Notes under the pieces: generated by a model
The model's database searches: none
Told to the model about the DNA's origin: nothing
Seen by the model: the letters and a program-made list of their open reading frames with translations, nothing else
Position numbers and translations under genes: made by a program
Shown: positions 7,058-16,056 of the stretch, in pieces
How positions within the stretch are numbered: the first letter of the stretch is position 1
Layout: each line of letters opens with the position of its first letter
DNA from: Planctomycetota bacterium
GTDB taxonomy: Bacteria > Planctomycetota > Phycisphaerae > Phycisphaerales > SM1A02
DNA length: 33,641 bases
Assembly: GCA_022563315.1 (NCBI GenBank)
Contig: JADFNO010000020.1
Span: 1 to 33,641, forward strand
Reading direction: 5' to 3'

Positions 7058-10000
7058 ATGACTGACAACGTCTACGATCGCGTCAACGATTTCGGGTCGG
7101 TAAAGATCTCGCTGGCCAGCCCCAACGACATCCGCAGTTGGAGCTTCGGCGAAGTGAAGAAACCCGAGACGATCAATTACCGCACGTATCGTCCGGAGAA
7201 GGACGGGCTCTTTTGCGAGCGCATCTTCGGGCCCGAGCGCGACTACGAGTGCGCCTGCGGCAAGTACAAAGGCACGAAGTACAAGGGCATCATCTGCGAT
7301 CGCTGCGGCGTGAAGGTGACCCACTCTCGGGTCCGCCGCAAGCGCATGGGGCACATCAATTTGGCGGCCCCGATCGTGCATATCTGGTTCTTCAAGGCGC
7401 TGCCCAGCCGGCTCGGGACACTGCTGGGGATGAAGACCGCGGACCTGGAAAAGATCATCTACTTCCAGGATTACGTGACGACCGAGCCGGGAACGAGCGA
7501 GCTGCAACTGCGGCAGGTGCTGACTGAAGATGATTACCGGGAAGCGGTCGAGAAGTTCGGCCCGACGGCTTTCACCGCCCTGATGGGGGCGGAGGCGGTC
7601 CGCGAACTGTTGTATCAGCTGAACCTCAATGACCTGTCCGACCAGCTTCGCGAGGGTCTGAACAACACCCGCAGCAAGCAGAAGATCAAGGACCTGTCCA
7701 AACGGCTCAAGCTCGTGGAGCAGCTTCGCCTCAGCGCCAACGATCCAACCTGGATGGTGATGGACGTGATCCCGGTCATCCCGCCGGACCTCCGCCCCCT
7801 CGTGCTGCTGGAGAGCGGCAACTTCGCCACCAGCGACCTGAACGATCTGTACCGGCGGATTATCAACCGCAACAATCGCCTCAAAAAGCTGATGGACCTC
7901 AACGCGCCGGAAGTGATTATTCGCAACGAGAAGCGGATGCTTCAGCAGGCCGTGGACGCGCTGTTCGACAACGGCCGGTGCCGGCGTCCGGTGCTCGGCT
8001 CGAGCAACCGTCCGCTGAAGTCGCTCACCGACATGATCAAGGGCAAGCAGGGTCGCTTCCGCGAAAACCTGCTGGGCAAGCGGGTGGACTACTCGGCTCG
8101 TTCGGTGATCGTGGTCGGTCCGGAGCTGAAGCTGCACCAATGCGGCCTGCCCAAGAAGATCGCGTTGGAGCTGTACCAGCCGTTCATCATTCGCAAGCTC
8201 AAGGAGCACGGCCTGGCGGACACGATCAAGAGCGCCAAGCGCATGCTGGAGCGACGGGACCCGGAAGTGTGGGACATCCTGGAGCAAGTGATTTACCAGC
8301 ACCCGGTGCTGCTGAACCGTGCCCCGACGCTGCACCGGATGGGAATTCAGGCGTTCGAGCCGGTGCTGGTCGAGGGCAACGCGATCATGATCCACCCGCT
8401 GGTCTGCGCCGGGTATAACGCCGACTTCGACGGCGATCAGATGGCGGTGCATCTTCCGCTCTCGGTTGAGGCCCAGGCTGAGGCCCACGTGCTGATGCTC
8501 TCGACGCACCAGATTTTCTCGCCGGCGAACGGCGAGCCGATCGTCTCGCCCAGTCAAGACATCGTGATGGGCGTGTACTTCCTGACGGTGGCGCCCGCCA
8601 CCGACAGCGACGTTCCGGAGGAGAAGCTGCCCCGATTCAAGGACCCCCACGAGGCGATCCTGGCCCTGGAGCTGGGCAAGATCGACCTCCAGCAGCGGAT
8701 CGTGGTCCGACTGGCGCGCTTCGGCGAGGTGGTCCAGGCCGAAACCGGGCTGGTCGAACCGCTCCCCCGGCATCGCCGCCTCGTGACCTCGGTGGGACGG
8801 GTCCTGTTCAGCGACGTGCTGGCCGACGGCATGCCGTTCTACAACTGCGCGCTGGGCAAAGTCGGGTGCAGCCGGGTCATTGACGACACCTACGCCCGGT
8901 TGGGGCGACCCGCGACGTTGCAGATCCTCGACGACATGAAGGAGCTCGGATTCAAGAGCGCGACCCTCTCGGGCTTGTCGATCGGGATCACCGACATCCG
9001 CATCCCCGCCGACAAGGGGCATCTGATCGACCTGACGCAGAAGAAAGTGGATCGGGTGGAGAAGAACTACCAAGCCGGGGCGATTACCGAGCGTGAGCGT
9101 CACAACCAGTTGCTGGACCTGTGGGCTCACTGCCGTGAGCAAGTGACCAAGAGCATGGTGCAGACGCTCGAGAACGATCGGCGCGACCCGACAAACCATA
9201 AGGAGGTGCCGATCGACTCCACGGAGGGAGAGCCCTACCTCAACCCGGTCTTTTTGATGTCCACGTCCGGTGCCCGAGGCAACATCAGCCAGATGCAACA
9301 ACTGGCGGGCATGCGCGGCCTGATGGCCAAGCCCTCTGGCGAGATCATCGAAACCCCGATTCGGGCGAACTTCCGCGAGGGGCTGAACGTCCTTGAATAC
9401 TTCTCCTCGACACACGGCGCCCGTAAGGGCCTGGCCGACACTGCCCTCAAGACCGCGGACTCCGGCTATCTGACCCGCAAGCTCTACGACGTGGCCCAGG
9501 CCGTGGTCGTCACCGAGCTCGACTGCGGGACGAAGATGGGCATTCCCAAGCGGGCGATCTACAAGGGCGAGCAGATCGATGTCCCGCTTCGCGAGGCGAT
9601 CCTCGGTCGAACCAGCCGTCAGACAATCCGCAACCCGATTACCGACAAGCTGATCGTCGAGGAGAACCAGCTCATCACCTCGGCGGTGGCAGCCGAGATC
9701 GAAGCCTTGGGCATCGACTCCGTGCGGGTCCGCAGCAGCCTGACCTGCGGAACCTCTCGCGGCGTGTGCGCCCGCTGCTATGGCATGGACATGTCGACGG
9801 GGCAGGCGGTTGAGGTCGGACTTGCCGTGGGCACGATCGCCGCCCAATCCATCGGCGAGCCGGGCACGCAGCTCACGATGCGGACCTTCCACACTGGCGG
9901 CATTGCCGCCCGCGGAATCGTCGAGACCAGCTACCGGGCCGGGCACAGCGGCATGGTTGAGCTTCGCGACTGCAACGAGGTCGAGGTCAGCTCGCCTTCG

Positions 10001-11443
10001 GGGGACGTCTGGTTGGCGCTGAAGCGAAACGGCGAGCTCGCCCTGCTTGACGACAAGGGTCGCGAACTCGAGAAATACAAGGTCCCGTACGGTGCGTCGC
10101 TGAACGTCCGGCAGGGCGACCAGATCAAGCGAGGGCAAGTCCTCGTCGAATGGGACCCGCATCGAACTCCCATTTTGGCCGAGAAGTCCGGCATCGTGCG
10201 CTTCAAGGACATCATCGACGGTGAAACCATCCGGATCGAGGCAACTCGAGGTGAGGGCAAGAGCGAGCTGATCGTCATTGAGCACACCGGCGAAAAACAC
10301 CCGCAGGTCATCATTGAGAACAAGCAAGGAACGATCCTGGACTTTCACCATCTGCCCGCCAAAGCCAGGATCGAGGTGACCGAGGGTCAGCAGATCAAGA
10401 TCGGGCAGATGCTGGCCCGCCAACCCAAGGAGGTGGCGGGATCGGCCGACATCGTCGGCGGCCTGCCGCGCGTGACCGAGATCTTTGAGGCCCGAACCCC
10501 CAAGGATCCAGCGGTAACCGCCGAGATCTCCGGGCGCGTGGAGCTGTACTCCGACAAGCGCAAGGGCAAGATGACGATCCGAGTCATCTCCGACGGTGAG
10601 GTGGAGCACGACCACCATGTTCCGCAGGGCAAGCACCTGCTGGTGCATACCGCAGACGTCGTACACGCCGGTGACTCGTTGACGGAAGGGCCGCTGATTC
10701 CCCATGACATCCTGCGGATTCGGGGCGAAGAGGCGCTGTATTTCTACATGCTCGACGAGGTGCAGAACGTCTACCGGGCCCAAGGCGTGCCGATCTCGGA
10801 CAAGCACATCGAGATCATCCTGCGGCAGATGCTGGGCAAGGTCCGGATCCAGTCGCCGGGTGACACGGAGCTACTGCCCAACGAGGTCGTGGACAAGTTC
10901 TTGTTCCGGGAGCGCAACGACCAAATCGGGTCCAAGCTCCGGATCGTCGACGCGGGCGGGACGAGCCTTCCCGTCGCCTCGCTGGTCGACAAGGAGGAGG
11001 TCAAGGAAGCCAACGCCCTGGCCGAGGCCGAGGGCGAGGAACCGGCCAAGACCAAACGTGCCCGGCCAGCCACGGCCCAAACACTGCTGCTTGGGATCAC
11101 CAAGGCGTCGCTGCAGGCTGAATCATTCCTCTCAGGCGCGAGCTTCCAGGAGACGACCAAGGTGCTGACGGAGGCCGCACTGCGCGGAGCGGTGGACACC
11201 CTCCAGGGCCTCAAGGAGAACGTGCTTCTGGGACACCTGATCCCGGCCGGCACCGGGTTCGATCCCTACCTCAACATGCGGGTGAAGAAGCTGGTCGAGC
11301 CGCCCGTCTCGGAGCTTCAGGACGAGCAAGCCATGCTGGCCGAGGCCGTAGAGGCCGCCGAGGCCCTGGGGGCTGAGCGGGCGCCTGCGGTGGTCGAGGT
11401 GGTCGGCCAGCCGGGCCAGGAAACGCCGATGGTTGACTCCTGA
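7058..11443 (+). CDS. rpoC: DNA-directed RNA polymerase subunit beta'
   Basis: A 1461-residue beta' subunit. The N-terminal zinc ribbon has Cys65, Cys67, Cys80 and Cys83; the magnesium-binding active-site loop NADFDGD is at residues 454-460; the second zinc site has Cys897, Cys904 and Cys907 with an earlier Cys in ELDCGTKMG; and the trigger-loop region [19 protein letters not shown] follows directly. The C-terminal jaw ends in an Ala/Glu-rich tail of about 50 residues ([14 protein letters not shown]...), longer than in E. coli. It is in an operon with rpoB. The start is the ATG at 7058; no Shine-Dalgarno is visible because the heptamer array occupies that position, so translation may depend on an unpaired leader. 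Confidence 0.98.
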
Positions 11444-11739: not shown

Positions 11740-14700
11740 ATGTTACGATCACAATTGGCTCTCTTCGGGATGCTGGCTATCGCTGGGCTTAGTCTGGGGC
11801 AATCCGACGTCCGGCTGGCAACAACCCCGGCCCGCGATCGGGCCGTCACAGCGTTGCCGGAGTCGGCCTTGCGGGTTAGTTCTGAAACCAACCGAGCCCT
11901 GCAGGAGGAGAGGAGGAGGGCGACGCCCATGGCTTTCCCATTCCCTGCGCCGGTCCCGCCTGGAGCCGAAGACGGTCAGCTGGTGCCGCGTGCACCGCTG
12001 ACCAAGCTCCCAAACGGTGAGCTTGAAGCGTTCGGCGGGGGTTCGGGCCGGCTGGTGGTGAAGTTCATGGACGCCGTCAAGGCGCGGGCCACGCCGGATG
12101 GCTCGGTGTTCTCGCTCGTCAACCGGGATCTGAGGGCGATCGCCGATATTGCCTTGGGGGCCGAACTGAAGTTCGCGCCAACGATCAAGCTGCCGCAGGA
12201 ATCGCTGTCAGCCATCGAAGGCAAGGCGGCGGCCTACAGCAAACGGGCGCAACCGGACCTTGGGGGCATGATGTACGTAGCCACGCCGGATGGCGGACCC
12301 GTGCCCCTGGAGGCCGCGCAGGCCCTCAACGATCTGGACTTCGTCGAGTTCGTGTACTTCGAGCCGACGTACGTCGTGGACGAGGGGCCAACTGGTGCCT
12401 GCTGCCTGTCGGACGGATCGTGCGCGGACATAAGCGAGGCCGCCTGCGATGCCGCCGAGGGCGATTACCATGGCGACGGCACCACTTGCGCTAATGTTTG
12501 CGAAGCCTGCTCCGGCAGTTGCTTTGATCTCGACGGCAACGGCACGCCGGGGTGTTTCAACCAATGGGATACAGCGTGCTGCCAGACAGTGTGCGACTTC
12601 ACTCCGGAACTGGCCGCCTGCTGTACCGTTGAGTGGGACGAGCTCTGCGCCGCGGTTGCACAGTTCATCTGCAACCCGGTGTGCGGCCAGGAGGATGCCG
12701 GCGACTGCTTCGGCGACAACGGCACCCCCTATTGCGAAGATGAAGACTGTTGCAACACCGTATGCGAGATCGAGCCCCTGTGCTGCGATGTCGCGAACGT
12801 GGACGGCTGGGACGACTTTTGCGCCGACCTGGCCGGGTTGTTCTGTGGACAGCCAGGGTGCGGCGAGAATTCCGGCGGCTGCTTCGAAATCAACGGAATC
12901 CTCGGCTGCCAGGACGAGGACTGCTGCAACTTAGTCTGCGACCTCGATCCGTTCTGCTGCAACGAGGACGCACTGTGGCCGGGACGAGGCCCGCCGAGAT
13001 GGGACCCCTGGTGCGTGGAGCACGCCCAGATTCTCTGCGGGGCCGACGATCCCGCCGCGCTGTGCTCAAGCGCCGATACCGGACCCTGCTTCGAGCCGCA
13101 TGAGCAACCCGGGTGCACCGATGCGGCGTGCTGCATAGCGGTGTGCGAGGTCGAGCCGTTCTGCTGCAACGTCATCTGGGACGGCATGTGCGCGTCGCTC
13201 GCGTTGCAATTGTGCCTTTCCTCAGATCCGGACGGGGCGACACCGAGCTTCGCCTCCGCCCAGGGCTATCTGAGCCCATTCAGCTACATTCAGGACAACG
13301 GCGAACTGCCCCCGGCGATCGTGCCCGGGCTCCAGTTCGACGTGGACGGAATCCTGCTGGACGGCTACCAGGGCCAGGGATACAACATGCAAGGCCTCTG
13401 GGAGCTTGCCGACCAGTTCCTCCCCAATTTTCCCGGCACCGAGAACCTCACGCGCGGCAAGACCATCAAGGTCGGCATCATAGAGCACTCGGCCTTCATC
13501 GAAACGGCCAAAGGCCCGGACGCGCCGTACCGGCACGAGGACTTGCACGGCAAAGTGATCCCAGAGCCCGGGCAGACCATCATCATCGTCCCCGGGAACA
13601 TAAACCTCTCTGGGCACCATGGCACCGCCACCCTCGGCATCGTCGGGGCCATCGATCACGATGACGACGGCAACGAGGTCCCCGACGGTCTGAGCCCCGA
13701 TGAATCACGGGCGCAGGAACGCGGCATCGTCGGACTTGCCCCCGAAGCCGAGTTGTACTTCTTCCCGATCGTGTCGCTTGAGGAGGGCGGTCGATTACTG
13801 TCTGCGATCGCCAGCGCCATACTGGCCTTCGACCAAGGCGACGTGCTGTCATTCTCCATCGGGCCCAGCGGCTGCGGCACGCTCGCCAGCAGCCAAGGCG
13901 CGTGGCTGATGCTGCGGCTGGCCGCCGACGCCGGCATCACCTGCTGCATCTCGGCGGGAAACGACTGCTGCAATCTCGGGACGGCGCCCCAGTTCGGCGG
14001 TGAGGACTCCGGAGTCATCATCGTCGGCGCCGTGTTCCCCGGCCGCGGCGGTTTCAATAGGTATTGCCGACTCAGCTTCAGCAACTACTGTCAAAGCTGC
14101 GATCCCGAAGTTGACGCCGTGCACATCTCCGCTTGGGGCACCTCCGTGGCCACCCTCGGCTACGGGACGATGTTCTTCCCTGATGGCGACCTGAACCGCT
14201 CATACGCCAACGCCTTCAACGGCACCAGCGCGGCCGCACCGCAGGTGGCGGCGCTGGTGGCTTCTCTGCAAGGTTTTTCCAAGGTCTTCTACGGCCTGCC
14301 CTTGCGTCCCGAGGATATCCGCGACATCGTCCGAAGCAATGGATGGAACCAATGTGGCTTCCATGACCCGGACGATCTGCCGGGCAATAGTGACGACCCG
14401 CCCTGCCTGGCCGACTGGGATTTCGGCGATGCGGCCAATCGGATCGGTATTCGAGTTGACGGGCATACCATCGCCTACACCGATCCCCTTACGGCTGCCA
14501 AAGCCATAGTCCAGAGCGGCGTCTTCGATTGCGACTCACTCATCGAGTCGTTTGAGATCTACCGCGGCACCCGAATCTCTGGCAACATCAACTCCCTGCG
14601 CTGCCCGGACGGCATCTTCCTCACCGTCAAGTCGCAGTACACCGAGCCGACGGACAACATCGACCTGGGGATCGTGTACCTCGGGCCCGGCCACATCACC

Positions 14701-15169: not shown

Positions 15170-15197
15170 CACTCCCCGGCCACGGGGAGTGTTCTTT
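15170..15197 (+). terminator. Intrinsic terminator of the subtilase gene
   Basis: CACTCCCC (15170-15177) pairs perfectly with GGGGAGTG (15184-15191); the inner G-C pair makes a 9-bp stem with a GCCA loop. TTCTTT follows at once. It lies 59 bases after the subtilase stop codon. Confidence 0.75.
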
Positions 15198-15307
15198 GCG
15201 CCTCGAGGCGTCGGATAACGTGGATCATGCACCCTGCCCGGTGCGCCATGCGATCCCTCTCTCGAGCTCCCATCTCGGCCTCAAATTGCTGATCCTGAAT
15301 CGAATAC

Positions 15308-15324
15308 GCCTGCAAAGTGCAGGC
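15308..15324. promoter_or_regulatory. Perfect 7-bp inverted repeat upstream of the kinase remnant
   Basis: GCCTGCA and TGCAGGC flank AAG. A TATGCT hexamer (15335-15340) that could be a -10 site follows 10 bases later. The position fits an operator or a leader hairpin of the former kinase gene; no regulator is identified. Confidence 0.3.
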
Positions 15325-15365
15325 CGACATGCTGTATGCTGGCGCCGACCCGAGAGGAGGGCAAA

Positions 15366-15820
15366 ATGCCGGAGAACGACCGCACGGCTCCTGAGGACGC
15401 AAGCCGTAACGTCGAGCCTACGGGTCCTACGAGACCCAAGACCGTCAGCACAACTCACTTCAGGGCAACAAATAGGGCGATACACCATCCGGGAAATTCT
15501 CAGTGAAGACGGCTTCGCCGGCGTGTATCTGGCCGAGCAAACCGAGCCTGTCCGCCGGCGCGTCGCGCTGAAGGTGATAAAGCTCGGCATGGATACGAAG
15601 CAAGTCCTCGCTCGCTTCGAAGCCGAACGCCAAGCCCTGGCCATGATGGATCACCCCAACGTGGCCAAGGTATTCGACGCGGGAGTGAGCGACGCGGGCC
15701 GGCCGTACTTCGTCATGGCGCATAGTCCCGGAATCCACATTACCGAGCACGGCGATCGCCAGCGACTGTGCATCGAGCAACGTCTGCAACTCTTCATAAG
15801 CGTGTGCGATGCCCTGATCC
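15366..15820 (+). pseudogene. Frameshifted, truncated PknB-type Ser/Thr kinase remnant
   Basis: An ATG at 15366 with a strong AGGAGG five bases upstream opens a frame of about 36 residues (MPENDRTAPEDAS...). The kinase sequence continues in another frame from about 15466, so an indel lies near 15455-15475. The kinase part matches the N-lobe of planctomycete PknB-type kinases: IGRYTIREIL, then VALKVIKLGMDTKQV with the ATP-binding Lys, then the helix C segment RFEAERQAL, MDHPNVAKVFDAG and GRPYFVM. The glycine loop is damaged (SEDGFAG instead of GxGxxG). Similarity stops at LFISVCDAL, before the catalytic HRDxKxxN loop, DFG and everything after, so it cannot be an active kinase. The break is close to the end of the inverted DUF4177-like remnant. 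Confidence 0.75.
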
Positions 15821-16056
15821 TGTCTTGGGTTTCTTTCGAGGCGCCACCAATTGCCAACCTCGCTCAGATGCCAACTCACACAGGGCATTGGAAAAACATA
15901 GACCTCTTATGGACATCCTGTCCAACTGATGGATTTCGGGATACAGTTTCCGTAAGAGTTCGTCCTCCATGACTCGCACCTGATACGTTTTGAAGGCGTT
16001 TTCAGTAGCCTCGGGTGGGCGAACTCTTTCTCAATTCAATACTTATCGCGCATCAT
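15794..16056 (-). pseudogene. DUF4177-like small protein remnant
   Basis: The minus strand is open from 16030 to the stop at 15794 and encodes FKTYQVRVMEDELL...ALCELASERGWQLVAPRKK, which resembles the small DUF4177 fold (a YxV strand and an L-x-x-L-x-x-x-GW-x-LV motif). An ATG pair at 16056/16053 has AGGAGA five bases upstream but stops after six codons (MMRDKY), while the DUF-like sequence lies in another frame. This fits a single frameshift. Its last 11 codons run into antisense kinase sequence, so the natural C-terminus may also be lost. The function of DUF4177 is unknown. A start at GTG 15979 would give an intact 61-residue protein instead. The rest of the gap up to 16134 shows no gene. 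Confidence 0.4.

Follow-up and report, generated by a model that had tools for sequence, protein, structure and literature searches.

The subtilase gene described here lies in a 33,641-nucleotide stretch of DNA from a Planctomycetota bacterium (the window), and it probably encodes an S8 serine protease with predicted activity and a catalytic triad Ser830-His627-Glu582, in place of Asp-His-Ser, the textbook subtilisin triad. The first-pass annotation had put Glu582 at the catalytic Asp site and had described His627, Asn741 and Ser830 as kept, and our analysis bears out both statements: the acid motif of the ORF reads KVGIIEHSA (13468-13494), the codon is GAG and the Glu is aligned to the Asp32 column of subtilisin, while the other three residues are found under the same numbering in the motifs GHHGTA, SAGND and NGTSAAAP. 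With Glu582 at the first triad position, where classical S8 enzymes have Asp, the window protein is not a classical Asp-His-Ser subtilase; it still belongs within the S8 superfamily because of its homology and fold.

The Pfam Peptidase_S8 profile matches the window protein with 65.2 bits against a curated cut-off of 21.8 (residues 622-865), and, since the match begins at profile position 51, the acid motif lies outside of it. NCBIfam gave sub-cut-off matches only, and the flanking parts of the protein, the propeptide and Cys-rich regions included, matched no Pfam family at E values up to 1. The catalytic domain is preceded by Cys-rich repeats, CCxxVCxxxPxCCxxxWDxxC, three of which fit the search pattern and one of which, that at residue 395, was recognised by eye; among the 114 open frames of the window gene's bacterial family (the window family), 82 contain the pattern. 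The enzyme is probably secreted and would act outside the cytoplasm, and it is probably made as a zymogen. Positions of the features are collected in Table 1.

Table 1. Features of the subtilase gene and its upstream neighbour in the window
Feature	Position	Strand	Basis
Subtilase gene, 1123 aa	11740..15111	+	ORF and Pfam PF00082, residues 622-865, E 8e-18
Probable signal peptide, residues 1-20	11740..11799	+	Inferred by reading the sequence
Possible propeptide region, about residues 101-220	12040..12399	+	Position and length alone
Cys-rich repeat region, residues 221-490	12400..13209	+	Repeats near residues 280, 337, 395 and 464
Catalytic domain as modelled, residues 540-950	13357..14589	+	AlphaFold pTM 0.79; VIA Z 29.9 to StmPr1
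Glu582, codon GAG, subtilisin Asp32 position	13483..13485	+	Profile/PDB alignment, 62-row alignment, codon, model
HEDL motif, His599-Leu602, counterpart of subtilisin HPDL	13534..13545	+	His599 invariant in 62/62 rows
His627, catalytic His, in GHHGTA	13618..13620	+	Invariant in 62/62 rows
Asn741, oxyanion-hole Asn, in SAGND	13960..13962	+	Invariant in 62/62 rows
Ser830, nucleophile, in NGTSAAAP	14227..14229	+	Invariant in 62/62 rows
Pro834, counterpart of subtilisin Pro225	14239..14241	+	Family and joint alignments
rpoC	7058..11443	+	Named from its own sequence

An alignment of close homologues had been proposed earlier as a check of the Glu, and it bears the Glu out. We searched 392 genomes of the window's phylum, where 37 had a match at E 1e-8, and 400 genomes of its order, where 130 had a match; the 54 distinct domains from the phylum, counting that of the window, divide at the acid site into 53 with Glu and one (L048) with Asp. 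A scan of GTDB, with one genome per species, used a profile of 12 relatives and peptide patterns around Ser and Asn, with none around the acid, and confirmed 340 relatives. Glu, His, Asn and Ser are all present in 80/80 of the named loci, which are the best 80 of these 340 as ranked against a Glu-type query, and which share five proteins with the 54-domain set. These best 80 span at least 11 phyla: Planctomycetota (17), Myxococcota (10), Bacteroidota (10), Pseudomonadota (9), Zixiibacteriota (6), Actinomycetota (6), Krumholzibacteriota (4), Acidobacteriota (3), Verrucomicrobiota (3), Schekmaniibacteriota (1) and Lentisphaerota (1), with 10 loci assigned to no phylum. When the window domain is aligned with 61 relatives, no variation is seen at Glu582, His599, His627, Asn741 or Ser830 (62/62 rows). 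A private mutation or a sequencing slip at Glu582 is ruled out by the phylum domains and the best 80 of 340 relatives, and Asp is not the state of the homologues for the subfamily as a whole, the window family itself being mixed (66 Glu and 37 Asp of 114). Because a single change of the third base turns a Glu codon into an Asp codon, it would be logical to suggest that such conservation of Glu points to selection. When viruses were scanned with the full window protein no copy was confirmed; with the 12-relative profile two viral loci were obtained, one with Glu and one with an unreadable acid site. Plasmids gave no match at E 1e-10.

Structural comparison places the Glu at the same point. Searched against the subtilisins of the PDB, the 12-relative profile gave a best match of 9e-20, with Glu in the Asp32 column in three printed alignments. 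The window domain was modelled with AlphaFold (mean pLDDT 73, pTM 0.79); with Foldseek the model finds PDB subtilases at a best E of 9e-15, and it agrees with StmPr1 (VIA) over 279 aligned residues with Z 29.9 and rmsd 3.0, which corresponds to the subtilisin fold. Strand 38-43 of this model ends at Glu582, helix 85-97 has His627 near its start, and helix 290-312 begins just before Ser830. A member of the main clade, L065, which comes from the cultured Planctomycetes bacterium Pla86, was modelled with pLDDT 92.5 and pTM 0.90; its strand 29-34 ends at Glu34, and an extra Asp is within the strand. Thus the Glu of both AlphaFold models, whose folding alignments drew on 61 of 82 loci, ends the first predicted strand, as expected for subtilisin Asp32. 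The best 60 of 115 and the best 60 of 144 matches of the PDB searches were known subtilases, as judged by name rather than by acid residue.

We propose that the Glu582 carboxylate most likely accepts a hydrogen bond from His627, as Asp32 does in subtilisin. The extra methylene of Glu would be accommodated by the altered acid loop, which has no D-[ST]-G, and the change of HGTH to HGTA, with Ala where a His follows the catalytic one by three positions, may also make room for it. Otherwise catalysis would be ordinary, with an acyl-enzyme formed on Ser830 and the oxyanion held by Asn741. Sedolisins (S53), too, combine a subtilisin-like fold with a Glu in the active site, and the first-pass annotation had pointed to them as a parallel. 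This comparison finds no support: in sedolisins the place of the catalytic His is taken by Glu, and an Asp contributes to the oxyanion hole, whereas the window protein retains both His and Asn. An acid pH preference, which the first-pass annotation had also suggested, would be conjecture. Its membership in S53 is ruled out, His627 being present and invariant.

The suggestion of the first-pass annotation that Glu may mark a clade agrees with the conservation counts and with a tree calculated without the acid columns. At the acid site of a joint alignment of 230 S8 domains (L069 is absent from it) there are 137 Glu, 84 Asp, 6 gaps and 3 other residues. In the tree of 86 of such domains a branch with SH-aLRT 100 separates 47 rows (45 Glu, 2 Asp) from 39 (38 Asp, 1 Glu); this tree, like that of the window family considered below, is a quick one in which long branches meet. 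For comparison of the neighbouring residues the Glu-type and Asp-type groups were formed by the acid residue itself, so that the Glu and Asp counts outside the window family are given by construction; the 77 Asp-type rows include two with Gly or Leu at the acid site, and the 108 Glu rows include an outsider, L206. Asp-type rows have Thr or Ser at +1 in 69/77, Gly at +2 in 69/77 and HGTH in 58/77. Glu rows outside the window family show an aromatic residue at +3 in 101/108 and HGTA in 101/108, and in 107/108 of them the His of HEDL follows the Glu at +7, which is the spacing of subtilisin; in the window protein this interval is 10 residues longer than in its relatives. Window-family rows have Phe, Trp or His at +1 in 29/32 and HGTA in 30/32. 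Such differences may provide space for the longer Glu side chain. The outsider L206, from the Pla86 genome, carries an acid-site Glu (IVEGGRPC) in an Asp-type lineage and on a long branch, and this Glu is apparently of a second, separate origin.

The window family is where Glu has been replaced. For this family 80 further regions were fetched and 114 domains aligned. Of these, 66 carry Glu at the acid site and 37 carry Asp, Ala and Gly occur in three each, and five have a gap, hence an unread site; D-[ST]-G is absent from all 37 Asp rows. The full set of His, Asn and Ser is present in 62/66 Glu rows (two have lost Asn and two end before Ser), in 26/37 Asp rows and in 0/6 Ala/Gly rows, and the Asp rows that keep them suggest that this scaffold may function with Asp as well. 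The Pro at the fourth position after Ser, which corresponds to subtilisin Pro225, is retained by 45 of the 64 Glu rows that can be read there, leaving 19 without it, versus 1 of the 43 in which Asp, Ala or Gly stands at the acid site. A tree of the family made without the acid and active-site columns has 11 changes of acid state, and both the outgroup (3 of the 12 profile relatives were left out of it) and the early branches carry Glu, which suggests several losses of Glu within the family. The association of Glu with Pro has a Fisher p of 1e-13, a value that ignores relatedness and is descriptive only; in a pair test allowing for relatedness it was not significant (six pairs, 3.3 in the same direction, 0 opposite and 2.7 with no difference; median p 0.25). 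Mean root-to-tip paths are 2.58 for Glu rows without Pro, 2.32 for Asp rows without Pro and 1.54 for Glu rows with Pro (p 3e-8, again ignoring relatedness and descriptive only), and, since Glu rows without Pro have the longest paths, speed appears to track the loss of Pro more than the loss of Glu. Our reading of this pattern of residues is that Glu persists as long as the active site does, and gives way upon its change or decay. Against this reading stand the 26 Asp rows that keep His, Asn and Ser and may be active, the 19 Glu rows without Pro and the non-significant pair test. Nine members (L240, L241, L299, L303, L304, L307, L309, L318 and L319), with open frames as long as about 1800 aa, have other residues in place of the catalytic His, Asn and Ser alike, and by their sequences these are likely pseudoproteases descended from the same enzyme.

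Could the Glu-type domain of the window itself be a pseudoprotease that has given up cleavage for a binding or structural role? We consider it unlikely. The window family does hold clear pseudoproteases, as 6/6 Ala/Gly rows have lost His, Asn and Ser and 11/37 Asp rows have a broken set, and its broken or Pro-less rows sit on longer paths; against this, the window protein and nearly all Glu rows of its family (62/66) keep the three residues, and across the wider clade none of them is missing from any row (62/62), which would be needless for a dead enzyme. Tolerated drift, where the acid is only partly needed and Glu carries no functional meaning, is highly improbable in our opinion. Asp, Ala and Gly indeed replaced Glu several times in the window family, as the 11 acid-state changes on its tree indicate, but Asp is found in none of the 80 named loci (best 80 of 340) from at least 11 phyla, and 42 of the 43 window-family rows with a replaced Glu have also lost the Pro.

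It is very unlikely as well, though a little less so than drift, that another residue is the catalytic acid, namely the Asp that most members have at -2 or, in the window protein, the Asp601 of HEDL, so that Glu582 would be secondary. Asp stands at -2 in 103/108 Glu rows outside the window family, so it could share the acid role there; the region reads D-x-E, and D-x-E-x-[GAN] in the main clade, and a fungal survey gives it as DxExG (PMC5567314). However, this motif is absent from the window, which reads IIEHS, and the window family has Val or Ile at -2 in 30/32 rows, the acid site of the same 32 rows being Glu in 29 and Asp in 3. The strand of the L065 model, too, ends at Glu and not at the Asp at -2. 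As to Asp601, which the first-pass annotation had raised as a possible stand-in, its position is acidic in 44 of 45 intact window-family rows, but the same Asp occurs in 46/77 Asp-type rows and its position is that of a calcium ligand in subtilisin, and because of both we judge it an unlikely substitute.

Siezen and colleagues reportedly named a Glu-His-Ser family in 2007. PMC2827410, citing Siezen 2007 (doi 10.1002/prot.21290), states that the Asp-to-Glu exchange was observed in prokaryotic subtilases, and adds its occurrence in a peptidase subfamily of lactic acid bacteria; the title of the work of Siezen, Renckens and Boekhorst, as given in the reference list there, speaks of novel subfamilies with different catalytic residues. 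The first-pass annotation was justified in calling a Glu triad unusual in S8, but PMC2827410 already mentions prokaryotic subtilases of this Glu type, which rules out novelty as a new triad. Like this Glu subset, the window protein has Glu for the catalytic Asp with the S8-type His and Ser regions kept, and it belongs with it, matched by description only. Our analysis contributes the distribution over taxa, a family that lacks the Asp at -2 and, within this family, the recurrent exchange of Glu for Asp, Ala or Gly, nearly always together with loss of the conserved Pro near Ser and often with disruption of the triad; the phylum spread and the replacement may or may not go beyond Siezen 2007. 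According to the fungal survey (PMC5567314), a fungal S8 subgroup with DxExG instead of DTG, described as having a unique Asp residue region, maps to CDD cd04843, and an entry in PMC3188533 lists a Paenibacillus larvae protein under the same cd04843. Through this DxExG description, which resembles the D-x-E-x-[GAN] of the main clade while the window family is without the first Asp, the Glu clade is probably cd04843, Peptidases_S8_11 (uncharacterised subfamily 11).

With subtilisin BPN' and other S8A subtilisins the window protein shares the fold, the His, Asn and Ser motifs, the HxDL motif and the order of the triad, and it differs from them in Glu for Asp32, in the lack of the D-[ST]-G turn, in HGTA for HGTH and in the Cys-rich region before the catalytic domain. 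Glu is the third triad member also in acetylcholinesterase, Geotrichum lipase and PepR, as PMC6490906 and PMC2827410 mention; these Ser-His-Glu alpha/beta hydrolases have a fold unrelated to that of the window protein and can serve as an analogy of mechanism only. For subtiligase (the S221C/P225A subtilisin) it is stated in PMC7921005 that P225A restores the activity of the Cys221 enzyme. A natural Ala occurs likewise at the Pro225 position in many window-family relatives, among them L237, L262 and L284, and many of these keep Ser; L237 and L262 combine the Ala with Asp at the acid site. Unlike subtiligase, most of the Ala relatives have Ser at the nucleophile site, Cys is there in 0/114 window-family rows, and the window protein keeps Pro834. 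Ligase activity does not follow from an Ala at this position, and the likeness to subtiligase is to be taken, by analogy, as a lead only. We may even imagine, as a quite improbable scenario for the window family, that a working Ser-His-Glu enzyme, with its gene next to rpoC in many members, lost its Pro225 counterpart and then its Glu, passing through transferases or ligase-like forms to peptide-binding pseudoproteases.

A clade that keeps Glu over at least 11 phyla indicates that the subtilisin fold can carry the longer acid. The window family in its turn offers matched sets (Glu, natural Asp and natural dead types, partly at the same locus) for probing of the third triad residue. Annotation based on D-[ST]-G would miss the acid site of Glu-type enzymes.

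The subtilase start is 296 bases downstream of rpoC (7058-11443), an arrangement common to some relatives. The C-terminal part of rpoC was found upstream in 12 of 20 fetched upstream stretches, before 11 Glu genes and one Asp gene, one of these matches (L327) spanning 83 residues only, and in 9 of the 80 window-family regions, all nine with Asp. The same rpoC-adjacent locus thus carries both Glu and Asp types. As many loci have short flanks, absence of rpoC beside the gene means little.

Some other genes of the window and of its genome deserve mentioning. The ORF at 15196-15972 (258 aa) is kinase-like, with a score under the Pfam cut-off and a similarity that ends at about residue 207 and covers less than half of the profile; it may be truncated or frameshifted. 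A small RNA-recognition-motif protein (RRM_1, E 1.9e-21) is encoded at 2225-2749, upstream of an rpoB-like ORF. The genome of the window has four other S8 matches, of which L005 is a weak partial match and three (L001-L003) carry the normal Asp motif.
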